Shown: positions 3,799 to 63,810 of the stretch, piece by piece
Numbering within the stretch: position 1 is the stretch's first letter
How the letters are laid out: every line of letters begins with the position of its first letter
Source of the DNA: Bolinopsis microptera
Lineage: Eukaryota > Ctenophora > Tentaculata > Lobata > Bolinopsidae
Direction: 5' to 3'
DNA: 64,000 nt
Assembly: GCF_026151205.1 (NCBI RefSeq)
Contig: NC_087076.1
Coordinates: 10,020,902 to 10,084,901 of the forward strand
Position numbers and translations under genes: made by a program
Notes under the pieces: model-generated
The model's database searches: none
The model's input: only the letters and a program-made list of their open reading frames with translations
What the model was told of the DNA's origin: nothing

Positions 3799-4167
3799 CA
3801 CAGGAGGGGCTAAGTGCAAATAAACTGCTGCTCACTGCTGCTCACTGCTGCTCACTGCTACTAACTGCTGCTCACTGCTGCTGTCGCGCGCGCGCCCATA
3901 GCAGCAGTGAGCAGCAGTTAGTAGCAGTGAGCAGCAGTGAGCAGCAGTGAGCAGCAGTGAGCAGCAGTTGCGCGCAGCGTGCGTTGCCCAGTAAAGACAC
4001 GCATATAACTGCTGCTCACTGCTGCTCACTGCTGCTCACTGCTGCTCACTGACAGCAGCAGTGAGCAGCAGTGAGCAGTAGTGAGCAGCAGTTAGTAGCA
4101 GTGAGCAGCAGTGAGCAGCAGTGAGCAGCAGTTAGCAGCAGTTTCTTTGCACTTAGCCCCTCCTGTG
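3799..4167. mobile_element. Small foldback transposon with internal short tandem repeats
   Basis: The termini are 22-bp exact inverted repeats beginning CACAGGAGGGGCTAAGTGCA. They are flanked by CGTT at 3795-3798 and 4168-4171, a probable 4-bp target duplication. Between them the sequence is built from a ~10-bp unit (TGCTGCTCAC) in alternating orientation: forward, reverse, forward, reverse. There are two arm pairs around a GC-rich centre (GCGCGCGCGCCC) and a second spacer near 3970-4010. The element encodes nothing; the Ser/Gln-rich frames are artefacts of the repeat. A CAC tip with a 4-bp duplication would fit a CACTA/Chapaev-like mobiliser, but that is inference. Confidence 0.8.
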
Positions 4168-23039: not shown

Positions 23040-24727
23040 GCTGTTGAGAATTAACTTGTAGTGATGATCACTGTACAACTATAATCTGTAATTAATTTCA
23101 TGGCTTTTGCTCTCTTGCTTTCGGTTTGAACTCATTTAGAAGGGCTTTTCTTTTAAATGCCATTGCATAATGCATATATCATCTTTATTCAAATTCCAAT
23201 TTTTATACTTCAGATTGTAACAATTTCTGTGTTTAGCTGCGTTAACAAAAACGAAATAATCATGCGGTTATAAATATTTGCTCATTAAATATACATCAAA
23301 TTAAAACATCAAACAACCTAATTTACAAATGTTACACTATCAACATATCATCTACACTCTATAATATGTATATAGGTCATTTCCCCCGTTATAATATCCA
23401 TGTCCAAAAAGGTATTTTCTTGGGCAAACTCTGAAAATCACTGTTTGTACTGTTTATCGCCGGACAACTCTTCTTGCAGTGATGTTCCTGAGAAAACATG
23501 GCATGTTAATCAGGGCCCCTAACAACTTTATAAATATCAATCTGCTTCAACTTTCTGGTATGTGTTCCCATACAGTTCCTGTCGGTTTAGAAGCACTCTT
23601 TCCTTTTCGATAGTAAAATTAAATGTTGTTGCAGGAGTCAACGCAGACATTCGAAAACGATATTACTACCTGAAGATATTTACTGGGCCGCGCTCAGCCT
23701 GTCATTCCGCCTAATATGTTTATGATTATGAACATGATAGCCTGAGGTCCCCAGGTAAGAAGATATCCACTTTGGTATCTTTATCTACACATGCACTTGG
23801 TTGATTGTATTGTAGATACCACTTGCTTTGCTAGCCATAGAAACTCCAGAATCCAGATGTTAATTTGTAATTGCCGGATAGCCTTTTTTTATGCGATGCC
23901 GAATATTTTCAGCCATTCTAAACTTATGGTTTGATCACCTGTAGAGTTTCATCATCTTTACTGAAATAGCAACTTTCTTACTTCAGATTTAATTCAGTGT
24001 TGACAAATAATCACACAGGTATAAATAGTTATTAAATGATAACAAATAAAAAGATATTAAACAAATAATTTGTAAAGTTAACATCGACCACACTCTATGA
24101 TTATTATGACTTAAAGATCATCGCGCGAGATCCAATTTTTAACTGTCATCTGTTTAGAAACTTTTATTCGTCAGTGAATGATTTTGAAGAAAAAATGTGG
24201 AGTTTAGTCAGTTAAATGACTGTACACAAAGAGTATTTCGGAAGTAATGATAATTGAACACCTTGATAGGATTAAGGTGCATGGTTGATGGTTACAATCG
24301 AGCGAATTGTATGCGACAAAGATTTTATTAGCAGCGCGGACGAGTCCGATTGCTTGCAGCGCACCCCAACTGATGCCAATTTTGTTATCTTATCTTAACC
24401 CCAGGTTAAATTTGGGCTTTGGTTTCTATAACAACATGATCTAAATATGGGCATGCGCGGCTCAATATTTCATAATTTTGCGCTATAAGATGTAGCAAAA
24501 TCTCGTTTGTCGTTAGCGCCCCAGGAATAAGCAGAAGACGTTTCCCTGAAATGTGTAGTGGATTTTGTAGTGGATTTTGCGCGCCGCACGTACGTTACAA
24601 TATTTATTATTGTAGAATCTACGACGGTAGCCGTCAGAGTTCTCAATAAACTGCTCGTATTTTTAGACAATAAGATATGAATAACGTAATAACACATCCA
24701 ACCCCATTCAGCTGAATGGATCAGGCC
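23040..24727. other. Non-coding stretch and left flank of the satellite region
   Basis: I see no exon. At about 24540-24580 a block (ACGTTTCCCTGAAATGTGTA then GTGGATTTTGTAGTGG) recurs in inverted orientation at about 32140-32195. The flank repeat thus mirrors the one beyond the far end of the satellites. Confidence 0.5.
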
Positions 24728-27700
24728 GTCCATCCCAAAATAGCTGAAGTCCCCTAAAATACAGACTGAGAATCTTTACTCCTGTAGGGGATTTGTGTTT
24801 CTGGGTTTATGGAACATTTTCGGTGGTTAAATAGGAAGTACCTGTCACAAGTCATCAGAAAAACCAAGTTTCAACCTCCCAACCCACTCAGGCCACTCCC
24901 AGGGGCCACACCCATCCCAAAATTACTGAAAATTAGGTAAAATCAAGACCGAAAATCTTTACCCCCGTAGTGCATTTATGTTCCAGGGTAGGTGGAACAT
25001 GTTTTAGTGGTTAAATAGTTAGTACTTGTCCCAAACCATCAGAAAAACCGAGTTTCGACCTCCCAACCCACTCAGGCAACTCCCAGGGGCCACACCCATC
25101 CCAAAATTACTGAAAATTAGGTAAAATCAAGACCGAAAATCTTTACCCCCGTAGTGCATTTATGTTCCGGGGTAGGTGGAACATGTTTTGGTGGTTAAAT
25201 AGTTAGTACTTGTCCAAAACCATCAGAAAAACCGAGTTACGACCTCCCAACCCACACAGGCCATTCCCAGGGGCCACGCCCATCCCAAAATTACTGAAAT
25301 CACTGAAATTACTGAAATTACTGAAAATTAGGTAAAATCAAGACCGAAAATCTTTACCCCCGTAGTGCATTTATGTTCCGGGGTAGGTGCAACATGTTTT
25401 GGTGGTTAAATAGTTAGCACTTGACCCAAACCATCAGAAAAACCGAGTTTCGACCTCCCAACCCACTCAGGCCACTCCCAGGGGCCACGCCCATCCCAAA
25501 ATTACTGAAATCACAGAAATTACTGAAAATTAGGTAAAATCAAGACCGAAAATCTTTACCCCCGTAGTGCATTTATGTTCCGGGGTAGGTGGAACATGTT
25601 TTGGTGGTTAAATAGTTAGTACTTGTCCCAAACCATCAGAAAAGCCGAGTTTCGACCTCCCAACCCACTCAGGCCACTCCCAGGGGCCACGCCCATCCCA
25701 AAATTACTGAAAATTAGGTAAAATCAAGACCGAAAATCTTTACCCCCGTAGTGCATTTATGTTCCGGGGTAGGTGGAACATGTTTTGGTGGTTAAATAGT
25801 TAGTACTTGTCCCAAACCATCAGAAAAACCGAGTTTCGACCTCCCAACCCACTCAGGCCACTCCCAGGGGCCACGCCCATCCCAAAATTACTGAAATCAC
25901 TGAAATTACTGAAATTACTGAAAATTAGGTAAAATCAAGACCGAAAATCTTTACCCCCGTAGTGCATTTATGTTCCGGGGTAGGTGGAACATGTTTTGGT
26001 GGTTAAATAGTTAGCACTTGACCCAAACCATCAGAAAAACCGAGTTTCGACCTCCCAACCCACTCAGGCCACTCCCAGGGGCCACGCCCATCCCAAAATT
26101 ACTGAAATCACTGAAATTACGGAAAATTAGGTAAAATCGAACCGAAAATCTTTACCCCCGTAGTGCATTTATGTTCCGGGGTAGGTGGAACATGTTTTGG
26201 TGGTTAAATAGTTAGTACTTGTCCCAAACCATCAGAAAAACCGAGTTTCGACCTCCCAACCCACTCAGGCCACTCCCAGGGGCCACACCCATCCCAAAAT
26301 TACTGAAAATTAGGTAAAATCAAGACCGAAAATCTTTACCCCCGTAGTGCATTTATGTTCCGGGGTAGGTGGAACATGTTTTGGTGGTTAAATAGTTAGT
26401 ACTTGTCCCAAACCATCAGAAAAACCGAGTTTCAACCTCCCAACCCACTCAGGCTATTCCCAGGGGCCACGCCCATCCCAAAATTACTGAAATCACTTAG
26501 ATTACTGAAATTACTGAAAATTAGGTAAAATCAAGACCGAAAATCTTTACCCCCGTAGTGCATTTATGTTCCGGGATAGGTGGAACATGTTTTGGTGGTT
26601 AAATAGTTAGTACTTGTCCCAAACCATCAGAAAAACCGAGTTTCGACCTTCCAACCCACTCATGCCACTCCCAGGGGCCACGCCCATCCCAAAATTACTG
26701 AAAATTAGGTAAAATCAAGACCGAAAATCTTTACCCCCGTAGTGCATTTATGTTCCGGGGTAGGTGGAACATGTTTTGGTGGATAAATAGTTAGCACTTG
26801 ATCCAAACCATCAGAAAAACCGAGTTTCGACTTCCTAACCCACTCAGGCCACTCCCAGGGGCCACGCCCATCCCAAAATTACTGAAAATTAGGTAAAATC
26901 AAGACCGAAATTCTTTACCCCCATAGTGCATTTATGTTCCGGGGTAGGTGGAACATGTTTTGGTGGTTAAATAGTTAGTACTTGTCCAAAACCATCAGAA
27001 AAACCGAGTTTCGACCTCCCAACCCACACAGGCCATTCCCAGGGGCCACGCCCATCCCAAAATTACTGAAATCACTGAAATTACTGAAATTACTGAAAAT
27101 TAGGTAAAATCAAGACCGAAAATCTTTACCATCGTAGTGCATTTATGTTCCGGGGTAGGTGGAACATGTTTTGGTGGTTAAATAGTTAGTACTTGTCCCA
27201 AACCATCAGAAAAGCCGAGTTTCGACCTCCCAACCCACTCAGGCCACTCCCAGGGGCCACGCCCATCCTAAAATTACTGAAAATTAGGTAAAATCAAGAC
27301 CGAAAATCTTTACCCCCGTAGTGCATTTATGTTCCGGGGTAGGTGGAACATGTTTTGGTGGTTAAATAGTTAGTACTTGTCCCAAACCATCAGAAAAACC
27401 GAGTTTCGACCTCCCAACCCACTCAGGCCACTCCCAGGGGCCACGCCCATCCCAAAATTACTGAAATCACTGAAATTACTGAAATTACTGAAAATTAGGT
27501 AAAATCAAGACCGAAAATCTTTACCCCCGTAGTGCATTTATGTTCCGGGGTAGGTGGAACATGTTTTGATGGTTAAATAGTTAGTACTTGTACCAAACCA
27601 TCAGAAAAACCGAGTTTCGACCTCCCAACCCACTCAGGCCACTCCCAGGGGCCACGCCCATCCCAAAATTACTGAAATCACTGAAATTACTGAAATTACT

Positions 27701-27990
27701 GAAAATTAGGTAAAATCAAGACCGAAAATCTTTACCCCCGTAGTGCATTTATGTTCCGGGGTAGGTGGAACATGTTTTGGTGGTTAAATAGTTAGCACTT
27801 GACCCAAACCATCAGAAAAACCGAGTTTCGACTTCCCAACCCACTCAGGCCACTCCCAGGGGCCACGCCCATCCCAAAATTACTGAAAATTAGGTAAAAT
27901 CAAGACCGAAATTCTTTACCCCCATAGTGCATTTATGTTCCGGGGTAGGTGGAACATGTTTTGGTGGTTAAATAGTTAGTACTTGTCAAC
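24728..27990 (+). repeat. Satellite A, forward block, about 17 units
   Basis: The tandem unit is about 184 bp and contains ACCGAAAATCTTTACCCCCG, GGTAGGTGGAACATG and CCAGGGGCCACGCCCATCCC. Seventeen phase marks (CTTTAC) can be counted. Several units are 200-210 bp because they carry one to three extra TGAAATTAC/TGAAATCAC steps before the GAAAATTAGG motif. The first unit is strongly diverged, as is usual at array edges. There is no coding potential. Confidence 0.92.
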
Positions 27991-28260
27991 CAAATTAGTC
28001 ACGAAAGGGAGCACTTCAGGGTATGATTTTATTCGAATTAGTATTACTTACTGCAGAAGTCCGCAAAGGGATTAAAAATGACGAAGTTATCAAGCAACCT
28101 GTTTATTTTGGTATCGAATTGGGTGAATAATCATGTGATAGCGTGCTAAGATACCGTAATTGGGCTTTCTGCACGATTCCCATAGGGCGGATCTAGTCTC
28201 AACCCAATAAACTGATCGCACGTACGCGTAAGGGTCGTTCACATATCATATAATCGATAT
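27991..28260. repeat. Spacer with old dispersed repeat and a solo MITE end
   Basis: About 28075-28225 matches the repeat around 4970-5600. It is followed at about 28229 by AGGGTCGTTCACATAT, one end of the MITE family seen at 1.5 and 17.5 kb. No partner end is present. Confidence 0.6.
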
Positions 28261-28605
28261 TTTGGCAATCATCCTCGATACGTACCTCTGAAGGCAGGGC
28301 TCCCGCTCCCGAGCTCGCACTGCAAAAGGGAGGCCTGTCTTCCGAGATCACATTACATGGGGGATCCCTCGAGTCCGAAATCGCATATCGAAGGGTAGGT
28401 CCGGACTTCGAAAATCGAAGAAATATTTTCGGCTAATAATGATCAAGGTAGCATGAATCGTGAATAAAAGTAGTTTCCAGAAAAACTTTGAAAATATTTA
28501 GACTAAGAAAATTTTCGGTCCGAGTCATCCTCGATACGTACCTCTGAAGGCACGGCTCCCGCTTCCGAGCTCGCACTGCAAAAGGGAGGGCTGCACTCCT
28601 TGAGT
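28261..28605 (-). repeat. Satellite B, reverse-oriented units
   Basis: About 1.4 copies of the unit described at 28803-29508 lie here in the opposite orientation. Shared text includes CTCGATACGTACCTCTGAAG, GAGCTCGCACTGC and GAAAATTTTCGGTCC. Confidence 0.75.
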
Positions 28606-28802
28606 AATTCTCCATTTTATGCCATTGCCCCCCCCCCCCCCCCACACCAGCCATACTACACTGATCGTTTATATTGTATATGATATGAGCCAAAAATATT
28701 TTGTCTGGGCCCAGGGGTGTAGGAAGCGGGGGGGGGGGGGCATCGCTTCCCCCATGAAATCCGGGCAAGGGGCCAAAAAGGGCCAACTTTTTAATTTAGG
28801 TT
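28606..28802. other. Centre of the mirrored satellite structure
   Basis: About 200 bp with a poly-C run (near 28627-28643) and a poly-G run (near 28729-28741). The string AGGGGTGTAGGAAGCGGGGG resembles the tip of some hAT-like elements. This is a likely spot for assembly error. Confidence 0.5.
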
Positions 28803-29508
28803 TCTAAAAATTTTTCCCCGAAAATTTTCAAAGTCAAAAATTTTCAAAGTTTTCTTGGAAAATACTTTTGTTCATGTTTCATGCTACTCTGATCATTCTG
28901 AGCCAAAAATATTTTTTTCGGTTTTCGAAGTTCGATATACGATTTTGGACTCGAGGGTTCCCCTTTGTAATACGATCTCGGAAGGCAGGGCTCCCCTTCG
29001 CAATACGAGCTCGGAATTGGGAGCTCTGCTTTCAGAGGTTCGTATCGAGAATGACTCGGACCGAAAATTTTCAAAGTCAAAAATTTTCAAAGTTTTCTTG
29101 GAAACTACTTTTGTTCATGTTTCATGCTACTCTGATCATTCTGAGCCAAAAATATTTTTTTCGGTTTTCGAAGTTCGATATACGATTTTGGAATCAAGGG
29201 TTCCCCTTTGTAATGCGATCTCGGAAGGCAGGACTCCCCTTCGCAATACGAGCTCGGAAGCGGGAGCTCTGCTTTCAGAGGTACGTATCGAGAATGACTA
29301 GGACCGAAAATTTTCGAAGTCAAAAATTTTCAAAGTTTTCCTGGAAACTACTTTTGTTCATGTTTCATGCTACTCTGATCATTCTGAGCCAAAAATATTT
29401 TTTTCGGTTTTCGAAGTCCGCACTTACCCTTCGATATACGATTTTGGACTCAATGGTTACCCTTTGTAATGCGATATCGGAAGGCAGACCTCCCCTTCGC
29501 AATACCGA
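28803..29508 (+). repeat. Satellite B, forward units (about three, period 243 bp)
   Basis: The motif CCGAAAATTTTCAAAGTCAA recurs near 28818 and 29061, and near 29304 with one change, giving a 243-bp period. Units contain GAGCCAAAAATATTTTTTTC, GGTTCCCCTTTGTAAT and GGGAGCTCTGCTTTCAGAGG. The last unit is cut short and fuses directly to satellite A at 29508. The long open frame through it (about 28868-29551) follows the repeat and is not a gene. Confidence 0.88.
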
Positions 29509-32120
29509 AAATTTAACCACCAAAACATGTTCCACCTACCCCGGAACATAAATGCACTACGGGGGTAAAGATTTTCGGTCTTGATTTTTACTGGATTTCA
29601 GTAATTTTGGGATGGGCGTGGCCCCTGGGAGTGGCCTGAGTGGGTTGGGAGGTCGAAACTCGGTTTTTCTGATGGTTTGGGACAAGTACTAACTATTTAA
29701 CCACCAAAACATGTTCCACCTACCCCGGAACATAAATGCACTACGGGGGTAAAGATTTTCGGTCTTGATTTTACCTAATTTTCAGTAATTTTGGGATGGG
29801 CGTGGCCCCTGGGAGTGGCCTGAGTGGGTTGGGAGGTCGAAACTCGGTTTTTCTGATGGTTTGGGACAAGTACTAACTATTTAACCACCAAAACATGTTC
29901 CACCTACCCCGGAACATAAATGCACTACGGGGGTAAAGATTTTCGGTCTTGATTTTACCTGGATTTCAGTAATTTTGGGATGGGCGTGGCCCCTGGGAGT
30001 GGCCTGAGTGGGTTGGGAGGTCGAAACTCGGTTTTTCTGATGGTTTGGGACAAGTACTAACTATTTAGCCACCAAAACATGTTCCACCTACCCCGGAACA
30101 TAAATGCACTACGGGGGTAAAGATTTTCGGTCTTGATTTTACCTGGATTTCAGTAATTTTGGGATGGGCGTGGCCCCTGGGAGTGGCCTGAGTGGGTTGG
30201 GAGGTCGAAACTCGGTTTTTCTGATGGTTTGGGACAAGTACTAACTATTTAACCACCAAAACATGTTCCACCTACCCCGGAACATAAATGCACTACGGGG
30301 GTAAAGATTTTCGGTCTTGATTTTACCTAATTTTCAGTAATTTTGGGATGGGCGTGGCCCCTGGGAGTGGCCTGAGTGGGTTGGGAGGTCGAAACTCGGT
30401 TTTTCTGATGGTTTGGGACAAGTACTAACTATTTAACCACCAAAACATGTTCCACCTACCCCGGAACATAAATGCACTACGGGGGTAAAGATTTTCGGTC
30501 TTGATTTTACCTGGATTTCAGTAATTTTGGGATGGGCGTGGCCCCTGGGAGTGGCCTGAGTGGGTTGGGAGATCGAAACTCGGTTTTTATGATGGTTTGG
30601 GACAAGTATTAACTATTTAGCCACCAAAACATGTTCCACCTACCCCGGAACATAAATGCACTACGGGGGTAAAGATTTTCGGTCTTGATTTTTACTGGAT
30701 TTCAGTAATTTTGGGATGGGCGTGGCCCCTGGGAGTGGCCTGAGTGGGTTGGGAGGTCGAAACTCGGTTTTTCTGATGGTTTGGGACAAGTACTAACTAT
30801 TTAGCCACCAAAACATGTTCCACCTACCCCGGAACATAAATGCACTACGGGGGTAAAGATTTTCGGTCTTGATTTTACCTAATTTTCAGTAATTTTGGGA
30901 TGGGCGTGGCCCCTGGGAGTGGCCTGAGTGGGTTGGGAGGTCGAAACTCGGTTTTTCTGATGGTTTGGGACAAGTACTAACTATTTAACCACCAAAACAT
31001 GTTCCACCTACCCCGGAACATAAATGCACTACGGGGGTAAAGATTTTCGGTCTTGATTTTACCTGATTTTCAGTAATTTTGGGATGGGCGTGGCCCCTGG
31101 GAGTGGCCTGAGTGGGTTGGGAGGTCGAAACTCGGTTTTTCTGATGGTTTGGGACAAGTACTAACTATTTAACCACCAAAACATGTTCCACCTACCCCGG
31201 AACATAAATGCACTACGGGGGTAAAGATTTTCGGTCTTGATTTTACCTAATTTTCAGTAATTTTGGGATGGGCGTGGCCCCTGGGAGTGGCCTGAGTGGG
31301 TTGGGAGGTCGAAACTCGGTTTTTCTGATGGTTTGGGACAAGTACTAACTATTTAACCACCAAAACATGTTCCACCTACCCCGGAACATAAATGCACTAC
31401 GGGGGTAAAGATTTTCGGTCTTGATTTTACCTAATTTTCAGTAATTTTGGGATGGGCGTGGCCCCTGGGAGTGGCCTGAGTGGGTTGGGAGGTCGAAACT
31501 CGGTTTTTCTGATGGTTTGGGACAAGTACTAACTATTTAACCACCAAAACATGTTCCACCTACCCCGGAACATAAATGCACTACGGGGGTAAAGATTTTC
31601 GGTCTTGATTTTACCTAATTTTCAGTAATTTTGGGATGGGCGTGGCCCCTGGGAGTGGCCTGAGTGGGTTGGGAGGTCGAAACTCGGTTTTTCTGATGGT
31701 TTGGGACAAGTACTAACTATTTAACCACCAAAACATGTTCCACCTACCCCGGAACATAAATGCACTACGGGGGTAAAGATTTTCGGTCTTGATTTTACCT
31801 GGATTTCAGTAATTTTGGGATGGGCGTGGCCCCTGGGAGTGGCCTGAGTGGGTTGGGAGGTCGAAACTCGGTTTTTCTGATGGTTTGGGACAAGTACTAA
31901 CTATTTAACCACCAAAACATGTTCCACCTACCCCGGAACATAAATGCACTACGGGGGTAAAGATTTTCGGTCTTGATTTTACCTAATTTTCAGTAATTTT
32001 GGGATGGGCGTGGCCCCTGGGAGTGGCCTGAGTGGGTTGGGAGGTCGAAACTCGGTTTTTATGATCGTTTGGGTCACGTACTACCTATTTAACCACCAAA
32101 ACATGTTCCACCTACCCCGG
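29509..32120 (-). repeat. Satellite A, reverse block, about 14 units
   Basis: This is the same 184-bp unit as the block at 24.7-28.0 kb, in reverse orientation (TGCACTACGGGGGTAAAGAT recurs every ~184 bp, 14 times). Units are nearly identical and uniform in length, unlike the forward block. The last unit is degenerate and passes into the mirrored flank repeat. Confidence 0.92.
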
Positions 32121-32354
32121 AACACAAATCCACTACACCTGTGAAATCCACTACAAATCCACTACACAAATCAAGGAAACGTGCTCTCGGAATAAGCAAC
32201 TATTTCTTCAGTGTTCGTCGATTGATTATCTTTGGCGGCAAATGAAGCGATCTTGCATGTGAAGCAGCCATAATCCGATCTATCCTCGACAATTTCCAAC
32301 ATGTTAAGCGTTACCCATCCAAGACAGACGACTTTCTTGACTCCTCGCTGTTTG
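32121..32354. repeat. Mirrored flank repeat of the satellite region
   Basis: About 32140-32195 is the inverted counterpart of 24540-24580 (TGTAGTGGATTT steps next to ACGTTTCC). Beyond it lies unique sequence leading to the 3' end of the ABHD8-like gene. Confidence 0.5.
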
Positions 32355-35300
32355 TCATGTCACTTCTTCTTGTGGCTTCTGTAATTATGAATAAATCATT
32401 GCGAGTACCACGTCCCATATTGATAAAACTGACATTAAGTTGACATGTTGTCATAAATTATTATTTATGGGCGTGTAAGAGCATCCTTGCTACTGCAAAG
32501 CGAGAGGCCATAGCGCATTAAGTTCAATTAATGTATTTTCCGTAAGTACAATAACTGAATAACTCTCGTATATGCCAAGAAAAATATATATAATTACCTT
32601 AAAAATAGTATTCTCGTGCAACTTGGAATGAACATCAAGATCATTGATAAGAAACGAAGTGATGATGTCATTGACTTCATCAGAACAGTCAATTGGTAGC
32701 ATATGTCCACCTTCTAAAACATGAAGCACCGACCTGAAATACAAGGAGTTAAACAAATTGTTATTCGTTAAAAGAATAATACTCCCACTATACTACTACA
32801 AACACTGAATTTGTTGATAATTGGTCCCCCCCCCCGGCCATCATGATTCACAGTAAGTCAAGTTTAAGTGTTGTCGGCTGAGTTGTCTCGGATACCAAAA
32901 GTATAAGTGTTTGAATTTTAACATGATTGATTAAATTACCATCAAGTAATAACAATCTTTCTAGAAGTATGGAGTATTATCGAGTAGTCGTCATAGAAAC
33001 TTAACAACCCGAATTACTGTATATTACACTGTAGAAATGATCTGATATTATATGAGCGCTGAGCAGCTCCTAATTTATAAATTAAGGCACAAATGACCAA
33101 GTTTTAAATTATGCTTACAACTCACACAGCACTGCAGTAGTACACCAAAATATCGGAATGTACAAGAAAAGCTTTATTGTCAGAAGTTGGGAAAGTAAAA
33201 CTACACTCTCCAGTATTTTCCATCAACCGAACGTTTCTAGGTGTTTAGATTGGCACTTAGCTACGTTCACAAAAAGCTGGCCCCTAAATTGCAACCAACT
33301 TATTCAACAGATTCAATTTTAGTTTTAATTTTGGTAATTCTTTAAAGAAGTATACATGTTGACAAGGAATCCTATTATTGAGGGGCCAGCTTTTCGTGAG
33401 AGGGTTGCAGCGTCACAAACTGTATATCTTAATACACTTACACAATATAACATTACAATATCTGCATTACCATAAATACATTACTGAACATTTTGTCTCA
33501 ACAACAAAGCAGATAGTATACATTCTATTTATATAATGTTATATATATAATGCTACGACATCTTAACACTGGAAACGCTGCATACAACACCTAGTTCCAA
33601 CAAAAAAAACATAATATGAACAGTATGAAACTCTTCTTTTTCCCTTTTTTAAAGAAGGAAAAAAGAAGAGAATAAAACTCACTGTGATATAACAAGGTTC
33701 ATGGTCATCTCATCTGCCAGCGGTATAAACTTGTCATGCCGCCCCACCAGCAGCAGGACTGGACAGTTTATTAGAGCGTGGTACGCCTCATCTCCCTCGT
33801 CCCACTTCTGTCCTCTCATCACTTGCTGTAAGTTTCCTATTTCTATACTTAGTAGCTCCGAGTTGGGAACTGACGACTTCTTTACTGGCGAGTGGAAACA
33901 AACCTGAGTGTTTGTAAGATTAGCTGGTTTTATTTGGCTGGATTGTGTTTTAATAATTTAAGATAATAGTTAACGGGTTTAATTGCGCTTGGGGAGTATT
34001 AATAATTATATAGTTTACTAGTTTGATATATGGGAATACTGATATACACCCGAGTATTTTTTAAGTTTAATGGTTTAGTTGGAGTTTGTTTTAATATTGA
34101 GATGTTAAAAACGTATTGTCAAGTATTTAGGTGACCTCCCAATGGGTTATACAATGGCGTACAATTTAATGATTGATTAGACGGAGTCAGAATATAAGAA
34201 GTACACATTACACAGTGGGTGTGGTGGTGAAGTGAAACAAGTTCAGTGGCAGATACTGAGTGTGTGTTATGTACAGTCTTATATGTTTAGCACGTGTTTA
34301 GCATGTGTGTAGCACGTGCTTAGTACGTGTTTAGTACGTGTTAAGTACGTGTTTAGTACGTGTTTAGTACGTGTTTAGCACGTGTTTAGTACGTGTTTAG
34401 CACGTGTTTAGTACGTATTTAGTTAGTGTTTAGTACGTGTTTAGTACGTGTTCAGTACGTGTTTAGTACGTGTTTAGTACGTGTTTAGTACGTGTTTAGT
34501 ACGTGTTTAGTACGTGTTTAGTACGTGTTTAGTACGTGTTTAGCGCGTGTTTAGCATGTGTTTAATTTTACATCAAAAATGATGTAAAGTTTTTAATATA
34601 AAATTTTAAGGGGGCCGGGGGGGGTCTTCATCAAAATTCTCTCGAAATTGACTTTGTAGTTGTTTCTGATGGAGGGGAGTGATATCTATCAGCTGTTTTT
34701 GGTCCCATGGAAAATTATTGTTCCTAGCCGAAATTATTGCCGGTCAAAGGTCAGCGCTTATGTGTAATTGTATTGCGCGAGCGATTTTCAATTGCGCGCC
34801 CTGATAATCGAGTCTAAAATCTATCTTCTCCTACATTTTTTGAGCAATCACCCTGCAACTTTCAGGATATGTTCTAAGGACCATTTAGAAGAGATTGTCG
34901 GGCCAGAATTTTGAGATAGGCCTTAGAAAATTTTTTATTCGATTTTGAAAATCTTGGACCTGAAAAAATCATCAAAAATCATCCAAGATTTTCAAAATCG
35001 AATAAAAAATTTTCTAAGGACTATCTCAAAATTCTGGTCCGACAATCTCTTCTAAATGGTCCTAAGAACATATCCTGAAAGTTTCAGGGTGATTGCTCAA
35101 AAAATGTAGGAGAAGATAGATTTTTAGACTCGATTTTCAGGGCGCGCGATTGAAAATCGCTTGCGCAATACAATTACTCATAAGCGCTGACCTTTGACCG
35201 GCAATAATTTCGGCTAGGAACAATATTTTTCCATGGGACCAAAAACAGCTGATAGATATCACTCCCCTCCATCAGAAACAACTACAAAGTCAATTTCGAG

Positions 35301-37687
35301 AGAATTTTGATGAAGACCCCCCCCCCCCCGGCCCCCTTAAAATTTCCGTACAGCCTAAGTATGCTCTTTTGAAAAACTATGAACATGCTAGCTTTCTTTA
35401 TTTTATTAGTCGGCCGACATCTTGGGTTGTACTGGACCGAACAAGTTTATTATCGGATGTCTACTTACATTTATTATGTTTTACTAAAAATAAGTGATTA
35501 GTACGTGTTTAGTATGCGTTTAGTTCGTGTTTAGTACGTGTTTAGTACGTGTTTAGTACGTGTTTAGCACGTGTTTAGTAGGTGTTTAGTAGGTGTTTAG
35601 TAGGTGTTTAGCACGTGTTTAGTAGGTGTTTAGTAGGTGTTTAGTAGGTGTTTAGTAGGTGTTTAGTAGGTGTTTAGTAGGTGTTTAGCACGTGTTTAGC
35701 ACGTGTTTAGTAGGTGTTTAGTAGGTGTTTAGCAGGTGTTTAGTACGTGTTTAGTACGTGTTTAGTACGTGTTTAGTACGTGTTTAGTACGTGTCACATG
35801 TTAGAGTAATAATGTTATTTCTTTTAGACTAACACGTATCTATGGATACTAGAAGGGAGGAATGATTAGCCAGTCAGCTTCCAGTATTGGCCAATCAAAA
35901 CCGATAATCACTGTCACGTGTCAAAACAAATACCGTACATCTACCTCAGCAGATCTACAGTATGTACGCTATGCTTCCAGGTCAATAATCAAAGCAATTT
36001 GAGCTGTGAGTGATCGATAATTAGTTGTCAAGCAAACTACAAATATTCGAGTAATGCTCGGTGTGCTACGAATTGTCGAATATTTTCCGACAACTTATAA
36101 GTTATAATCTTACATTCCGACTTTGAGACTAGCTACCATTCAAATAAGAACATAGTTTCAAATCAACGGCTCGAGTTTCAGTTTAATAGTTACAGCAATC
36201 TCTGTCATATCATATTTGAGGTCGACTAATAACTCAACAACTATTAACACAACAAGACAATACAACAAATAGGACAAACAATATTGTGTTAAGTTGGTGA
36301 AAATTCAGCTCAACAAACAGTTAATATCTTCGGCTTTGTCTAAAAAGAAACGCAATTAAAAAGAGTCCTTAAATTTCACGACTTCTTACATTTCTGCCTA
36401 ATGTTTCGGTCAAACCCTAATTTCTAATCATTTACGAAGTTATACAAATTCTTTATCATACCATCTGTCATATGATAAAGAAATGAAACCAATTTTGCCC
36501 ATCATCGGATATGTCATCATCCACAATACGTAATTAATCATACACACATACATGATTAATCGATGACTAAAACAGTTGTTTTACCTCCTTGAAAACTTTT
36601 AATATGAGAGGTTTAAAGCAAGAGAGCAGAGAGGCAGGTAGAGAAAACAGAGAGAAGTCTTCGGGAGCTAGAGCAAAAGGTCCTCCTCCGCTTATCAGGA
36701 TCAGCTTCTTCACCTTGCTTTGTCGCTCGTTGTACACTAGAGTACACAAACTGAAACGCATTGGTTTCTTCAGTTTACACAGTTTGGTCATGTTTGTCAT
36801 GATTATCCAGTATTCACTTAATTTGTTATATTATGTCTAGATGAGGTATTAAACAAATTCTTCAACAATGAAGTTACAAATGATTACTGTTTTTTATTAC
36901 AGTGAATTATATGATTTAGATTAGAGGCAGCCGCAAAGTATTGATAATTGGATATTTTAACATGGGTCAACATATTCTTCAGCTTTAAAGCATACTGTAG
37001 AAGAATATGCGGCTAAAAATATTTAGTAAACACACCTAGTACCATACGAGTGTCCAATCAGAACATTATGATTATTCACACTGTATCTGTCAAACAGCCT
37101 CAAAGCATCATAGCAGTACTGCTCAAACGTGAACATGTAATTCTCCGGACGTGCTGGGCACTTGCTCTTGCCATGAGCGAACATGTCACATGTGACCACT
37201 CGGTAACCAAGCCTCAGTAGGTGGGATATCTGACTTTTAAATTGCTTGTATGTTCCTCCCGCTCCATGGTAGAAAAACAGGGTTGTGTTGTTGTAGTTTT
37301 CAGGAGATCTGAAGTGGGGGGAATGTTTTTAAAGGCTTGGAGGTTGAATTTGTAAGGTCGTCAGTAGTCTTTGTTTAAGTTACCTTAGTATGGAATCTTT
37401 ATATTTAAACAAAATTTCCAACACGAAACTTTGTTAGCTTGGTCAATGGTCACTGGTCAGGGAGAGTTTACATGAGAAGTCACTGTAATATTATAACAGT
37501 ATTTGGCTCAATAAGCATACAATACATAATCAGTAAACATTTGTTCCATGGTTAAACCACTCCAGCATATCATGTAACTTACTAGTTCTTACCTTTCATA
37601 CACCACAACGTTTCTTCTCTTCCTAATCTCAGTTAGCTTTTCATGTTGGGTGTAATTATCATAGTTCGGTGATACTTTATAGGGCAT
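32355..37687 (-). CDS. ABHD8-like alpha/beta hydrolase, six exons
   Basis: Minus-strand exons are 37687-37593, 37308-37036, 36750-36585, 33903-33683, 32733-32598 and, more tentatively, 32378-32355. All phases match, and the total of 915 nt gives 304 aa. The alpha/beta-hydrolase signatures are complete: oxyanion motif HGAGG (46-50), nucleophile elbow GHSYG (Ser119), acid in GRHDKFIP (Asp235) and catalytic His in GGHML (His262). LILISGGGPFALAP and WDEGDEAYHA are close to vertebrate ABHD8, as recalled. The start is the first in-frame ATG after a stop. A short overlapping ATG lies 5 nt upstream in another frame. The protein lacks the longer N-terminal extension of vertebrate ABHD8. The last exon adds only seven codons; otherwise exon 5 would read on to a stop at 32490. 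The substrate is unknown, and ABHD5/ABHD4-type relatives are less likely. Confidence 0.8.
34285..34565 (+). repeat. 11-bp minisatellite TTTAGTACGTG, left block
   Basis: Roughly 25 tandem copies of TTTAGTACGTG with variants TTTAGCACGTG lie in intron 3 of the ABHD8-like gene. The same repeat continues in the same orientation at about 35495-35795. Confidence 0.9.
34598..35346. mobile_element. 750-bp perfect hairpin (foldback) element
   Basis: Two arms of about 360 bp (34600-34961 and 34984-35345) are almost exact reverse complements around a ~22-bp loop (CTGAAAAAATCATC...). The tips are AAATTTTAAGGGGG, followed by poly-G on one side and poly-C on the other. It lies between the two blocks of the 11-bp minisatellite. 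It encodes nothing. I see no clear target duplication, so the class is unknown. Confidence 0.85.
35495..35800 (+). repeat. 11-bp minisatellite TTTAGTACGTG, right block
   Basis: About 27 copies, with runs of the variant TTTAGTAGGTG not seen in the left block. It appears continuous with the left block apart from the hairpin element and its flanks. Confidence 0.9.
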
Positions 37688-39815: not shown

Positions 39816-42800
39816 GGGGGGGGGTGACATGTCTCCAATGTCTCCAATGTCTTTTGTCTTTTTTGAAAAGATAGGGTGCAGAGACATGTCCTGGAGACAT
39901 TGGAGACATTGGAGACACAGCTTTTGGAGACATTGGAGACATTGGAGACATTGGGGACATTGGAGACATTGGAGACAAAGCTTTTGGAGACATTGGAGAC
40001 ATTGGAGACACTGGAGACGTAGATGTATGATTGGAGAAGGAGGAGGATCTAGGAGGAGGATGACCCAGGAGGAGGACTCAGGAGGAGAAGGAGGAGGATG
40101 AGGACTCAGGAGGAGGACTCAGGAAGAGGACTGAGGAGGACTGAGAAGGAGGAGGACTGAGGAGTACTGAGGAGGATGGCTGAGGAGGATGGCTGTGGAG
40201 GATGGCTGAGGAGGATGACTGAGGAGGATGACTGAGGAGGAGGACCTAGGAGGGGGAGGACCCAGGAGGAGGAGGACTCAGGAGGAGGAGGACTCAGTAG
40301 GAGGACTCAGGAAGAGGACTGAGGAGGACAGAGAAGGAGGAGGACTGAGGAGTACTAAGGAGGATGGCTAAGGAGGATGACTGAGGAGGATGACTGAGAG
40401 GTAGGAGGAGGAGAACAATGACTGAGGAGAAGGAGAAGGAGGAGGACCTAGGAGGATGAGGACCCAGGAGGAGGACTCAGGAGGAAGAGGAGGAGGAGGA
40501 TTCAGGAGGACTGAAAAGGAAGAGGACTGAGGAGAACTGAGGAGGAGGAGGACTGAATAGGAGGAGGAGGAGGGGGACTGGGGGAGGACTGAGCATGAAG
40601 AAGACTGACGAGAAGGATGAGGAGGAGGACTGAGGACTGAGGAGGATGAAGAGGAGGAAGACCCAGGAGGAGGAGGGATGAGGACTGAGTAGGACTGAGG
40701 AGGAGAAGGAGGGGGACCTAGGAGGAGGAGGACCCAGAAGGAGGACTCAGGAGGAGGAGGAGGAGGAGAACTCAGGAAAAGGACTGAGGAGGACTGAGAA
40801 GGAGGAGGACTCAGGAGTACTGAAGAGGATGACTGAGGAGGAGGAGGAGGAGGAGAAGGACTGAGGAGGAGAAGAAGAAGGTGGAGGAACTAAGAGGAGG
40901 ATGAACCAGGAGGAGGACTCAGGAGGAGGACTCAGGAGGAAGAGGAGGAAGACTTAGGAGGAATGAGAAGGAGGACTGAGGAGAACTGAGGAGGACTGAA
41001 TAGGAGGAGGAGGAGGAGAAGGACTGAGGAGGAGAAGGAGAAGGTGGAGGAACTAAGAGGAGGATGAACCAGGAGGAGGACTCAGGAGGAGGACTCAGGA
41101 GGAAGAGGAGGAGGACTCAGGAGGAATGAGAAGGAGGAGGACTGAGGAGAACTGAGGAGGACTGAATAGGAGGAGGAGGAGGGGGACTGGGGAGGACTGA
41201 GGAGGAGGACTGACGAGAAGGATGAGGAGGAGGACTGAGGACTGAGGACTGAGGAGGAAGAGGAGGATGAAGAGGAGGAAGAGGACAAAGGAGGAGGAGG
41301 ACTGAAGAGGACAATGAGGATGAGGACTGAGGAGGAGGAGGAGGACTGAGGAGGATGGCTGAGGAGGATGACTGAGAGGGAGGAGGAGGAGGACTGAGGA
41401 GGAGGAGGAGAAGGACTGAGGAGGAGAAGGAGGAGGACCTAGGAGGAGGAGGACCCAGGAGGAGGACTCAGGAGGAGGACTCAGGAGGAGGACTCAGGAA
41501 AACTGAGGAGGAGGAGGAGGAGTGAATAGGAGGAGGGGGAGGACCTAGGAGGAGGAGGACCCAGAAAAAGGACTGAGGAGGAGGAGGAGGAGGAGAACTC
41601 AGGAAGAGGACTGAGGAGGACTGAGAAGGAGGAGGACTGAGAAAGAGGAGGACTGAGGAGTACTGAAGAGGATGACTGAGGAGGAGGAGGAGGAGGAGAA
41701 GGACTGAGGAGGAGAAGGAGAAGGTGGAGGAACTAGGAGGAGGATGAACCAGGAGGATGACTCAGGAGGAAGAGGGGGAGGACTCAGGAGGAGGACTTAG
41801 GAGGATTGAGAAGGAGGAGGACTGAGGAGAACTGAGGAGGAGGAGGAGGAGGACTGAATAGGAGGAGGAGGAGGGGGACTGGGGAGGACTGAGGAGGAGG
41901 AGGACTGACGAGAAGGATGAGGAGGAGGACTGAGGACTGAGGAGGAAGAGGAGGAGGATGAAGAGGAGGAAAAGGACCCAGGAGGAGGAGGACTGAAGAG
42001 GAGGATGAGGATGAGGACTGAGGAGGAGGAGGAGGACTGAGGAGGACTGAGGAGGATGGCTGAGGAGGATGACTGAGAGGGAGGAGGAGGACTGAGGAGG
42101 AGGAGGAGGAGGAGAAGGACTAAGGAGGAGAAGGAGGAGGACCTAGGAGGAGGAGGACCCAGGAGGAGGACTCAGGAGGAGGACTCAGGAGGAGGAGGAG
42201 GACTCAGGAGGAAGACTCAGGAAAACTGAGGAGGAGGAGGAGTGAATGGGAGGAGGAGGGGGACTGGGGAGGACTGAGGAGGAGGAGGACTAAGGAGAAG
42301 GATGAGGAGGAGGACTGAGGAGGAGGATGAGAACTGAGGAGGAGGACTGAGGAGTACTGATGAGGATGGCTGAGGAGGACGGCTGAGGAGGATGACTGAG
42401 GAGGATGACTGAGGAGGATGACTGAGAGGGAGGAGGAGGAGGAGGAGAAGGACTGAGGAGGAGGAGGAGGAGAAGGAGGAGGACGTAGGAGGAGGAGGAC
42501 TCAGGAAGAGGAGGAGGACTCAGGAGGAGGACTCAGGAAGAGGACTCAGGAGGAGGACTGAGAAGGAGGAGGACTGAGGAGGACTGAGGAGAACTGAGAA
42601 GGAGGAGGATGAGGACTGAATAGGAGGAGGAGGGGGACAGGGGGATCGGGAGGACTGAGGAGGAGGAGGAAGACTGACGAGAAGGATGAGGAGGAGGACT
42701 GAGGAGGAGGACTGATGATTGAGGAGGAAGAGGAGGAGGATGAAGAGGAGTAGGAGGACTCAGGAGGAGGAGGACCCAGGAGGAGGAGGACCCAGGAGGA

Positions 42801-43154
42801 GGACCCAGGTCCCAGGAGGAGGACTCAGGAGGAGGAGGAGAACGACTGAGGAGGACTCAGGAGGAGGAGGAGGAGGAGGAGGAGGAGGAGGAGGAGGAGG
42901 AGGAGGAGGAGGAGGAGGAGGAGGAAGAGGAGGAGGAGGAGTCTCCAAAAGCTGTGTCTCCAATGTCTCCAATGTCTCCAATGTCTCCAAAAGCTGTGTC
43001 TCTAATGTCCCCAATGTCCCAAATGTCCCCAATGTCTCCAATGTCTCCAAAAGCTGTGTCTCCAATGTCTCCAATGTCTCCAATGTCTCCAATGTCTTTG
43101 TCTTTTTCGAAAAGATAAGGTGCGGGAGACATTGGAGACATGTCACCCCCCCCG
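39816..43154. mobile_element. 3.3-kb foldback element with TTAA duplication and polypurine core
   Basis: TTAA flanks both ends (39812-39815 and 43155-43158). The inverted termini read GGGGGGGGTGACATGTCTCC on the left strand and its complement at the right. Inside come 9-bp repeats (GGAGACATT) on the left and their reverse complement (TCTCCAATG) on the right, with a shared KAFGD-like spacer motif AAAGCTTTTGGAGACA. A single block of TTTTGAAAAGATAGGGTGC-type sequence lies at each end. The core, 40020-42940, is an almost pure polypurine minisatellite (GGA, GGACTGA, GGACTCA). TTAA duplication is the signature of piggyBac-type integration, but the GGG tip is not the usual CCY, so the class is tentative. 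All open frames inside are low-complexity artefacts. Confidence 0.85.
40020..42940. repeat. 2.9-kb polypurine GGA/GGACTGA minisatellite
   Basis: The plus strand is overwhelmingly A and G with regular ACT/ACC steps. It ends in an uninterrupted (GGA)n run at about 42860-42930. Higher-order repetition is visible: blocks of several hundred bases such as GAACCAGGAGGAGGACTCAG recur. It forms the core of the foldback element at 39816-43154. Confidence 0.92.
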
Positions 43155-54068: not shown

Positions 54069-55712
54069 ACTTACTTGTACTTGATTAGGTCTCCTCAATC
54101 ATTCGAGTGGCCTGCACCAATGAACTCCCGTTTGTGACGTATCATCTCCCTCCAAAGTTTTCGGTCACTAGCCATCTCGCTCGCTCCTTCTAGGTCTATG
54201 TCTGTGTTTCCTGTAAACGCTGCAGCATCTTCCAGCAAAAATTTCCTCCAGTTCTTTCTTGGACGGCCCCTAGATCTTCTTCCATGCGCAGGGGTCCAGT
54301 TAAGCAGGTACTTAGGAAGCCTAGTGTCTGGCATTCTGGTGACATGGCCAAACCACCGCAGGCGGTTTGCTCCTATGAACGTCTCTACTGGATTTATCTT
54401 TGCACGCTCCAGCACTTCAGTGTTTCTAACCCGATCGAGCCATCTTATCCTAAGTATTCTCCTCAAGCAACGCTGATGGAACACCTCAAAGCGATGTAGC
54501 TGCTTTTTGGCTGTGTTCCAAACCTCACTACCATATAACAATATTGTCAAAACCGCTGCCTTATAAATCCTGATCTTTGTATAAGACTGGATGTTGCGGT
54601 TTTTCCATATATTACTCAGTTGATTGAAGGCTCCGGAAGCTTTCTGAATCCTAGCTGACAGCTCATGGTCGATAGTACCGTCGCTGGAGATAATTGTACC
54701 TAAGTACGTAAAATCACTAACTTGCTGCACTGGCGTGTCTTCAACAGTGATGTTCACTGTGGCTTCTTTCGTGTATGGCCGTTGAGAGGTTGCTTTACCA
54801 ATGACCATAGCCTCAGTCTTTTTTACCATTGAATCTGATACCTCCCTGGGCACCATACATACACAAAAGGTCAGTTGTTTCTTGAAGACCTTCCTCGCTG
54901 TTATCCAGTGCAGCCATGTCATCTGCATAGTCTGTATCTAACACAGTGATATCATCAACAAGCGGACTGATAGATCTTTGAAGAACCACTCCGTGGGACA
55001 CCACTTTGTTGCTTTCTGTTCTCTCAGCAGCCACATTGAGGCAGACATTAAAAAGTGGGGGACCCTGAATGTATCCTTGGCCACTGCCTGAACTTACTTC
55101 AAACCATTCTCATAGTTCACCATTGTGTCTAACAGCACTGACAGTTCCATTAAAGAATGCCTGTATTATTCGAATGTATTTACATGGCAGGCCATAATGA
55201 CTGAAAGCTTTCCAAATATAATTCCTGTCGATAGAATCAAAAGCTGCCTTGAAGTCCACAAAATTTACATACTGCAGGGGGAGATTATATTCAATGCAGT
55301 TATGTATAATAGTGCGGAGTGAATAAATCTGATCAATGCATGATCTTTTCTTTCTAAACCCACACTGATTGTCTCGTAGCAAACTTTCTAAACCGTCACT
55401 CATGCGTTGTAATATGATGATTTGATACAGTTTAGATGCTGTAGATCTTAGAGTGATCCCCCTATTATAGGAGCAATGAGAGGTATCACCCTTCTTTGGT
55501 ACAATTATCACGATGCCTTTCAACCAGTCGTCAGGCACTGCTTCTGAATTCCAAACTTTTGAGACAATTTCTCCATCCTATCCACAAGACCACTTGCCCC
55601 ATACTTTAACTGCTCATTAGAGATTTCGTCAATCCCAGCACTTTTGTGGTTCTTTAATTTTTTGAGACAGTTTAAAATCTCAAGTCTAGTGAGACAGTTC
55701 CTTAATCCCAAA
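54069..55712 (-). pseudogene. 5'-truncated LINE reverse transcriptase copy
   Basis: The copy is flanked by TATTCGTTAAT at 54058-54068 and 55713-55723, an 11-bp target duplication. The minus-strand frames give KNHKSAGIDEISNEQLKYGA, VPKKGDTSHCSYNRGITL, FVDFKAAFDSIDR (first catalytic Asp present), DTDYADDMAALDNSEEGL (catalytic YADD) and then the long C-terminal part DFTYLGTIISSDGTIDHELS, LYGSEVWNTAKKQLHRFEVF and RLRWFGHVTRMPDTRLPKYL. Frameshifts or stops near 55540, 55095 and 54840 inactivate it. The apurinic endonuclease part is missing. The 3' end (CAAGTACAAGTAAGT on the minus strand) looks like a short tandem tail rather than poly(A), as in RTE-type LINEs. The wording of the C-terminus is that of the widespread craniofacial-development-protein-2-like group. 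Confidence 0.88.
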
Positions 55713-62103: not shown

Positions 62104-62652
62104 TTATTTCGTTGATCTTTTCCTTTTTTTTAAAAGAACACGAGCTTTCTCATTTTCGTCGTGGTGTCTCACTGACTCGTCTCTGTCATTGAGAATATGA
62201 GGCAATATGTTATACGGCAACCTCCTCCTTATGCAATAGTTGTGTAATATGATACACGCTCCAATTACTTGGCAGGATACTTCTGGAGTGAACTGAAGTC
62301 CCCCTGTGTTGCTGGAATCCAGGCATCGCCACCTGGATTTTAACACTCCAATTGTTCTCTCGACAACCGATCTGCACCTCTTCAATGACTTATTGAACTT
62401 CTTTTCCCCTGTGGCGGTTGGATTGTTGAACGGGACCATTAGTTTCTCCCTAAGCGGATAACCACTGTCGCCTATCAGCCATCCATTGTAGCCGCGGTTT
62501 AACTGGGAGCAAATTGTGCTATTGTTCCATATCGTGCTGTCGTGTACCAAGCCGGGCCAATTCACTGTGCATGACTTAATTTCCTGATTCATCGAGCATA
62601 TCAGCTGTACGTTAATTGAATGATATCCTTTGCGATTCACATAAATCTCCTG
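62104..62652 (-). CDS. PIF/Harbinger (HARBI1-like) transposase, C-terminal exon
   Basis: The minus-strand exon begins after an acceptor (AATTAGTTGATCAG) near 62653 and reads EIYVNRKGYHSINVQ, VNWPGLVHDSTIW, WLIGDSGYPL, FNKSLKRCRSVVERTIGVLK and CIILHNYC to a stop at 62104, about 182 aa. These are the second half of the DDE_4 nuclease of Harbinger transposases. The second catalytic Asp (GDSGYP) and the catalytic Glu (VVERTIG) are present. The first Asp (in the usual A-x-D-x-T-H) would lie in an upstream exon, which I do not find between 62653 and the window end, so the copy is partial or extends beyond it. The exon itself is open with no frameshift, so the copy is young or the gene has been domesticated. 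Catalysis is cut-and-paste transposition with 3-bp TWA targets. Confidence 0.85.
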   Translation of the reverse strand, partial: QEIYVNRKGYHSINVQLICSMNQEIKSCTVNWPGLVHDSTIWNNSTICSQLNRGYNGWLIGDSGYPLREKLMVPFNNPTATGEKKFNKSLKRCRSVVERTIGVLKSRWRCLDSSNTGGLQFTPEVSCQVIGACIILHNYCIRRRLPYNILPHILNDRDESVRHHDENEKARVLLKKRKRSTK

Positions 62653-62659
62653 ATCAACT

Positions 62660-63810
62660 AATTAAAAAAAATTAAAACTTAAGTTCATAATGCTTTATAA
62701 CATGCATGTGCATATTAAGATGAAAAGACAATTAAACAATTTTTTTTAAATAACTGATAACCTGTAAATAAGATATTTACGTAAATTATTTTAAAAACTG
62801 GAAAGGCCGGAAAGTAAACTAGTTAACACATAACAAAGTTTAAAAATTATCGCGAAGTTTAAATATTCACAATACAAGAATGAATGATTTTGTAAAACGA
62901 TACAGATTACAGAAACTAAAAAGTACAATTAAGAAAAGAAGCAAAGGATCAAAAAAGTAGTTACATTATACAATGGGTGCAGTCCAGCCGAGTTCAAATT
63001 CTTAAATAAAAATTTAACCTGTCTCTCTTATCTCGGGAAACGTCGTTTATTTATCTCAACTAAAAACTGTGAATTAGAAATCTCCTTCAGAAGCTTTGTG
63101 TCAGTGAATAGAAGGTCCAACCTTGTCAAGGACAAGAGGCTGTACATAAAATGTTTTCGTAAAAGCTAGGTCTCTCGTGGAAAGACAGAAATGTCCGATA
63201 ATATAATATGAGGGTCAATACATATGATTATGAGGGTAAATATCATCATAACTTATAAGAAGTAAACGACTTATATTAAAGCTCCCAAATCATAATTCGC
63301 AATTGTTTTTATGGGGTTGGTGACTTCTAAACTCCCATCAGGATTCAGGAGCCGAGAAACGGGGATTTCACCAAATCACGTATCGCGAGTCGGATTCCAC
63401 ATGGCCAAGTCCTGTGTCTTAACGTTGCCTATTGGTGCCCCCGCTAAAAAAGGGCCCACCTCTTGGAACTCAGGCTATCATGTTCATTAACCCCTAAGTT
63501 CCATACCCGAATTTTCACTCAAATTTTTCACCCAAATAAAATTTGCCCGAATTTTTAACCCAAATTTTTCGCTTCGACTGAAATATTCGGGCTAAAAAAA
63601 TTCGTGAACTTGCGCACGAATTTTTTTATTTCATTCAAATAATATAGTCGCTGCGGTTGTAATCAATACTATAATTGCATTTTGTTATCCTAAATGTTTC
63701 TGGGATTACCTAACGCATATCATCATAACACTATAAATGATTTTACCAAAACCCATAATCATGGGTAGAGTGGACCGCTGCCAGTGTCTCTCTTTCCCAA
63801 ACAAAAGGAA
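62660..63810. other. Stretch without a supported gene
   Basis: AT-rich sequence. Around 63500-63640 there are several CCGAATTTTT/CCAAATTTTT steps of low complexity. The missing first exon of the Harbinger transposase was looked for here and not seen. Confidence 0.4.

Follow-up and report, generated by a model that had tools for sequence, protein, structure and literature searches.

A dispersed satellite-armed foldback transposon of the ctenophore Bolinopsis microptera and the apparent orientation of its insertions by a GC core

Introduction

What kind of structure sets two satellites and an outer flank repeat in mirror image about a single centre? The question is raised by a 64,000-nucleotide stretch of the genome of the ctenophore Bolinopsis microptera, hereafter the window (C5:10020902-10084901; contig NC_087076.1 of assembly GCF_026151205.1, which comprises 264.65 Mb in 232 contigs). 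The ctenophore origin is matched by an iGluR ligand-binding frame of this genome (L107), whose best solved relative is the Mnemiopsis receptor ML032222a at 120 bits, the next molecule scoring 92; another iGluR frame (L106) was most like kainate receptors, and a STING search gave no match, its control being equally silent. A first examination made from the letters alone, here called the sequence-only reading, took the arrangement to be unexpected of ordinary tandem arrays and offered two explanations for it, a giant foldback element carrying satellites or an inverted duplication that was later expanded. We find that the mirror structure is real, an assembly join being very unlikely, and that it is very probably one copy of a dispersed, satellite-armed foldback DNA transposon, apparently non-autonomous, whose insertion appears to be oriented and GC-guided.

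Identity and borders of the element

The borders of the element are exact, at 24532 and 32188, and just outside both of them stands GGAATAAG as an exact 8-bp direct repeat (Table 1). The outer flank repeat is inverted, with CAGAAGACGTTTCC from 24532 and GAGAGCACGTTTCC on the opposite strand ending at 32188, and the termini are asymmetric, differing between left and right. The best local match between the inverted arms joins 29594-31263 to 27073-25315 with 92.8% identity over 1,759 columns. The features by which foldback elements are recognized are found here: long inverted arms composed of tandem repeats, a target-site duplication, dispersed copies with common ends, arm lengths that differ from copy to copy, and a variable, usually non-coding centre. 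The foldback element is non-coding. Two frames of 168 and 247 aa, which span the repeats of the second satellite (B), have no Pfam match, and the window, scanned against Rfam (gathering threshold) and for tRNAs, returned no match.

The mirrored two-satellite structure described in the sequence-only reading stands for the inverted arms of the first satellite (A) and for the inverted outer flank; it fails for satellite B, whose two parts do not make up a mirrored array of common origin, as will be seen below.

Table 1. Coordinates of the foldback element and its parts in the window.
Feature	Coordinates	Strand	Basis or remark
Left-flank GCGC core, centre ~50 bp outside the element	24480..24483	.	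sequence; further cores 24455-24459, 24516-24519
Target-site duplication, left copy GGAATAAG	24524..24531	.	identical to 32189-32196
Left terminal domain: CAGAAGACGTTTCC end, two 12-bp GTAGTGGATTTT repeats, GCGCGC at +48 (24579-24584)	24532..24740	+	
Left arm, satellite A, 16-17 units of 184 bp or 184 + multiples of 9 bp	24741..27985	+	TRF, anchors
Central non-satellite segment, common to the five closest copies	27986..28268	.	
Old reverse fragment of hAT-type B element, ~1.3 units (putative)	28269..28599	-	
Spacer with poly-C run	28600..28711	.	sequence; recurs in sister copies
hAT-type B element, truncated: CAGGGGTGTAGGAAGC terminus, then 2.8 units of 243 bp; far terminus missing	28712..29510	+	
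Right arm, satellite A, 14 near-identical 184-bp units, reverse	29511..32136	-	TRF 98% matches
Right terminal domain: 12-bp repeats + GAGAGCACGTTTCC end	32137..32188	-	
Target-site duplication, right copy GGAATAAG	32189..32196	.	

Copies across the genome

With at most one mismatch, the left terminus CAGAAGACGTTTCC occurs at 169 places in the genome (54 for a reversed-pattern control) and the right terminus GAGAGCACGTTTCC at 151 (control 25), while positions 24541-24740 of the window, used as a query, gave at least 40 matches. Pairing was analysed on the first 100 listed exact termini of each end, with a limit of 30 kb between partners, and the pair counts given here hold among these termini. 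They form 69 inward-facing left-right pairs, 218 bp to 21.1 kb long; left-right neighbours are otherwise arranged in 6 cases, 4 of which are the ends of adjacent elements lying 27-42 bp apart. Both ends could be read in 21 of 22 listed pairs, and 16 of these 21 copies carry exact 8-bp target duplications. The genome-wide search for common ends and a target duplication, which the sequence-only reading had put forward as a check, came out in favour of the first of its two explanations.

An empty site was observed for the copy at C6:6158811. Its joined flanks match two uninterrupted paralogous places, C8:12391844-12391962 and C2:10470261-10470379, at 100% over 119 bases across the junction, and two more places at 89-91%; these matches represent the empty site, which lies in a repeat. 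Five copies in all were examined in this way, and the joined flanks of the other four gave no empty site, matching solely their own two halves in the genome. Because the element has defined ends, 8-bp target duplications and dispersed copies, and because a sister copy has an empty site, we regard it as a transposon, in agreement with the first of the two explanations offered originally.

Some family members stand out by their surroundings. Two lie 28 bp apart, at C5:4517910-4523862 and C5:4523891-4528322, each with its own exact 8-bp duplication. Five short copies of 426-794 bp (L108, L109, L110, L112 and L117) have about 80 bp of nearly identical left flank, that of L110 bearing a 5-bp difference adjoining the element, and these five may have been amplified jointly with the flank as a composite unit.

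A GC core beside the left end

GCGCGC was first spotted beside left ends while the flanks were read. For the counts, 42 of 49 left flanks were kept, the other 7 being removed as more than 70% alike (ungapped identity); L076 was omitted, its left end being that of L067, L085 was without a left end, and one of 40 flanks was removed during reading as a duplicate. The 25 right flanks were unfiltered for likeness, and two of them (L081 and L098) lie in the ends of other elements.

A CGCGC or GCGCG is found at most 80 bp from the left end in 32 of the 42 left flanks. It is centred 44-53 bp out in 23 of them, for a window background of 0.9% (binomial 3e-36), and the shorter GCGC or CGCG occupies the same interval in 31/42 (background 1.8%). 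The longer motif has its position peak at 46-49 bp, with lesser groups at about 18 bp and at 62-79 bp, and is absent from these 42 flanks at 0-9 and 25-39 bp. On the right side, GCGC or CGCG at 44-53 bp occurs in a single flank out of 25, where it belongs to the left end of a neighbouring element. The flanks of the hAT-type B elements described below served as a control from the same genome: none of 40 has GCGC or CGCG at 44-53 bp, and 2/40 have a core within 80 bp. A follow-up set of left flanks had the motif within 81 bp in all 10 cases; among its 5 independent flanks, CGCGC or GCGCG lay at 44-53 bp in 2 and GCGC or CGCG in 4, the corresponding figures for the first set being 21/37 and 27/37.

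The element has a GC core of its own. GCGCG(C) starts 48 bp inside the left end in 25 of 30 left ends, copies that are related by descent, and it was found in none of 25 right ends within the first 110 bp.

This pattern suggests that insertion is oriented and takes place at a fixed distance from a GC core, which would amount to targeting. Oriented targeting at about 48 bp would be unusual for an animal DNA transposon.

Satellite A arms

The unit of satellite A measures about 184 bp. The sequence-only reading had counted 17 units on the left and 14 on the right; the right count holds, and one fuzzy anchor gives 16 on the left. The copy in the window and its four closest relatives form a subfamily with ends, centre and the poly-C/poly-G stretch in common at 94-96% identity, so that four further copies show the arrangement to be more than chance. 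Their left/right unit numbers, counted with one anchor, are 16/14, 25/11, 20/21, 6/4 and 11/20.

Between copies, unit identity averages 96.8-97.8% (left-left, left-right and right-right), in a comparison limited to units matching at least 170 profile positions, where left units with 9-bp inserts are under-represented. For right-arm units, the nearest relative most often lies in the right arm of another copy (46/72). In left arms, units of 184 bp stand among longer ones, the excess being often a multiple of 9 bp, whereas the units of right arms are plain 184 bp in the window copy and mostly so in the sister copies. Some long copies have short left arms, for example C5:1880248-1893047 and C8:1827222-1837732. 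In an 18-kb copy, 46 left-arm units were found within the 9.7 kb read, nearly all of which is satellite A, with a single frame of at least 90 aa that is mainly satellite. The identity of units between copies, together with their differing numbers, indicates that the arms move with the element and change in length. Unequal exchange or replication slippage in the tandem repeats would account for their growth and shrinkage.

The centre and its hAT-type remnants

The sequence-only reading saw in the centre a satellite B in reverse and forward orientation, mirrored like the arms. The two parts proved to be unequal. Forward B (28712-29505, about 2.8 units) begins with the hAT-type terminus CAGGGGTGTAGGAAGC and in the window copy has lost its far end at the right-arm junction, while reverse B (28269-28599) is a 331-bp fragment of about 1.3 units, 80-85% like forward B and at most 84.8%. 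Reverse B looks like an older, separate fragment, because it is nearer to some standalone copies (up to 88% identity) than to the forward B alongside.

These standalone copies, 1.05-2.2 kb long, have the inverted ends CAGGGGTGTAGGAA. Twenty-five loci were taken, and 17 of the 20 two-ended ones carry exact 8-bp duplications; two locus pairs have the same duplication sequence. CAGGG-type inverted ends and 8-bp target duplications are typical of hAT-type elements, and satellite B has both. To judge from these features, "satellite B" is best read as two unequal nested remnants of a separate hAT-type element, which would stand outside the foldback design.

The hAT-type B family (L014-L038) has internal 243-bp tandem repeats in variable number, and is a second case in this genome of satellite-like arrays inside a DNA transposon.

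Transposase and proposed mechanism

The movement of the element may be pictured as follows. A transposase supplied from elsewhere would act on the ends and move the element by cut and paste. The left end would settle with a GCGC or CGCG about 48 bp outside, mirroring its own GCGCG(C) 48 bp inside, as the strong pattern of the flanks implies. On the likeliest reading, both cores are touched by one component, a GC-binding part of the transposition complex or a GC-motif protein of the host, which thereby fixes distance and orientation. That a single module, or a single host architectural protein, recognises both the target core about 48 bp away and the GCGCGC 48 bp inside the left end is a serious possibility, if somewhat short of probable.

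As to the superfamily, target duplications of Mutator (MULE) elements measure about 8-11 bp; the 8 bp of the foldback element fits this range, and is also found outside MULEs. A Galileo-like duplication of the P superfamily would have 7 bp, a length that departs from the 8 bp found here. Profile searches for P-type transposase (PF21787) and for KDZ gave no match, but the controls were equally silent and these searches are uninformative. In six arm-poor left-end loci, open reading frames judged by eye alone include no recognisable transposase.

A hAT identity was also considered for the foldback element itself. The target duplication of the hAT superfamily is of the type nTnnnnAn; the foldback duplications have T at position 2 in 3/16 and A at position 7 in 5/16, and this identity is disfavoured by that departure.

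Counter-evidence and alternative explanations

Several observations weigh against a GC-guided foldback transposon. Among the termini listed, 31 left and 31 right ends are unpaired, and there are 9 left-left neighbours within 30 kb. Exact 8-bp duplications are missing from five of the 21 copies with both ends read: the flanks of one agree exactly over 7 bp, though its pairing is ambiguous, those of another agree over 8 bp after a 1-base shift of the border, a third has its right flank in the terminus of another element, and the last two show no match. No transposase came to light: 0 of 88 MULE-domain matches fall inside the 69 pairs, most of whose interiors above 3 kb were unread. Concerning the GC core, 10 of the 42 left flanks, that of the empty-site copy included, are without CGCGC or GCGCG within 80 bp, and the window copy has merely GCGC at about -50. 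The pattern is moreover post hoc, having been noticed after looking, and the follow-up set is small, five of its ten flanks being one shared flank and one repeating an earlier flank.

The alternative that survives best concerns the agent rather than the element. A GC-motif protein such as the ctenophore CTEP1 or CTEP2 may attract insertions to the promoters or chromatin loops where it binds, so that the core would mark a host factor and not the transposase; we hold this for a genuine contender, though a doubtful one. In Mnemiopsis, CTEP1/2 bind a GC-rich motif with two CpGs that lies at more than 75% of loop anchors (PMC12221973). In placozoans, the loop-anchor motif occurs within the inverted ends of a Mutator transposon (PMC12221973). 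The GC cores described here also hold CpGs, and recur at about 18, 48 and 62-79 bp. A purely regional preference, however, would not yield a peak at 46-49 bp, one-sidedness and an empty interval at 25-39 bp, although a host protein whose footprint is fixed might do so. The link to the CTEP1/2 motif is no more than a lead.

It is improbable that the core carries no targeting signal and owes its place to the amplification of a composite unit or to selection acting on finished insertions. The nearly identical 80-bp left flank of five short copies speaks for such a unit, as do two further near-identical flanks, yet the 42 flanks counted had been filtered to less than 70% ungapped identity, and right flanks lack the core at 44-53 bp, bar the one inside a neighbouring element.

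Two further explanations bear on the structure itself. Inverted, highly similar arms with differing unit numbers, as are seen here, would also arise without transposition if ordinary satellite arrays had been duplicated locally in inverted orientation and had later expanded. This second explanation of the sequence-only reading is nonetheless very unlikely, for it leaves the target duplications unexplained: dozens of dispersed copies have the same ends, 8-bp duplications recur in the family, the window copy has an exact one of its own, and the empty site of one copy is uninterrupted. Least credible of all is an assembly artefact, in which two haplotypes or repeat copies were joined head-to-head at the poly-C/poly-G centre, the outcome that was to have overturned the original proposal; homopolymer runs do lie in the centre, but four other copies, spread over three chromosomes, share this centre at 94-96% identity, each at a different site with its own, different exact target duplication.

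Relation to known elements

A dispersed foldback transposon with satellite arms is not new as a design: judged by comparison of published features, its architecture is already known, Tetris being very close. The foldback elements TU of sea urchins and FB of Drosophila have outer short tandem repeats and a modular build, TU with 8-bp duplications. Compared by description, the present element resembles them in its outer domain of 12-bp repeats and its modular build. Sea urchin is also named as a foldback host in the accessible part of the Tetris paper (PMC4079207).

From that same part, Tetris of Drosophila virilis, with the miniature inverted-repeat transposable element (MITE) DAIBAM, resembles our element in having no conserved coding frames and a variable middle, and its arms hold internal tandem repeats of about 220 bp in variable number, as with satellite A (PMC4079207). 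Its target duplications measure 8-10 bp, a MITE has the same ends, satellite arrays grow inside the element and its transposase was not found (PMC4079207). The likeness is one of described architecture; in the ctenophore one arm reaches at least 46 units and the centre holds hAT-type fragments. Here, left ends stand at a fixed distance from a GC core, whereas the portion of the Tetris account at hand gives no such rule (PMC4079207).

Two other families share parts of the design, as far as the accessible portions of their descriptions go. Tm1, a Mutator/Foldback family of root-knot nematodes, has composite inverted ends, variable tandem repeats and asymmetric outermost motifs, as here, with target duplications of 8-10 bp, mostly 9, and MITE-like short members (PMC3169594). 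It differs in its units of about 14 bp (184 bp here), in a known group with putative transposase, and in duplications that its authors describe as without consensus (PMC3169594). Galileo, of the P superfamily in Drosophila, likewise has long, internally repetitive arms whose lengths change independently, but its target duplications have 7 bp in place of 8 and its P-type transposase is known (PMC3573991).

The new aspect of the ctenophore element looks to be its insertion pattern. Target preference is known from other eukaryotic DNA transposons, among them Pokey and a superfamily that we take to be Dada. That superfamily (PMC3706591) and Pokey (PMC3849761) are target-specific, but in the parts of these accounts available they aim at particular multicopy genes and not at a short motif on one side and at a fixed distance. 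Searches among open-licence papers brought up neither a foldback element of ctenophores nor a GCGCGC target rule.

Other repeats and mobile elements in the window

A second mirror-image element occupies 39820-43120. Its ends, GGGGGGGGTGACATGTCTCC, are inverted, its arms consist of 9-bp TGGAGACAT repeats, and its centre is a GGA-rich simple repeat of 2.9 kb; with GTTAA at each side, it is probably another foldback-like transposon. Two arrays of the 11-bp unit TGTTTAGTACG, with about 25 copies each, lie 0.9 kb apart in the same orientation (34284-34564 and 35494-35794), and four short arrays of a 10-bp unit alternate in orientation at 3824-4142 (ACTGCTGCTC / AGCAGCAGTG). Matches to a DDE_Tnp_4 transposase (62104-62661, minus strand) and to a reverse transcriptase (55110-55577, minus strand) belong to other mobile elements.

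Concluding remarks

Ctenophores have been proposed as the sister lineage to all other animals. Satellite-armed foldback elements, described in flies, are now found in a ctenophore, where they have carried tandem arrays, some of them tens of units long, to numerous chromosomal sites.

If one component does recognise both cores, each insertion would create a near-symmetric GCGCGC-48-junction-48-GCGCGC unit together with a satellite-armed hairpin, possibly at ctenophore promoter or chromatin-loop sites. Were the GC core a true targeting rule, it would provide a handle, from sequence only, on how an animal DNA transposon chooses its site and orientation, and the use of ctenophore loop GC-motif proteins by mobile elements would become testable.

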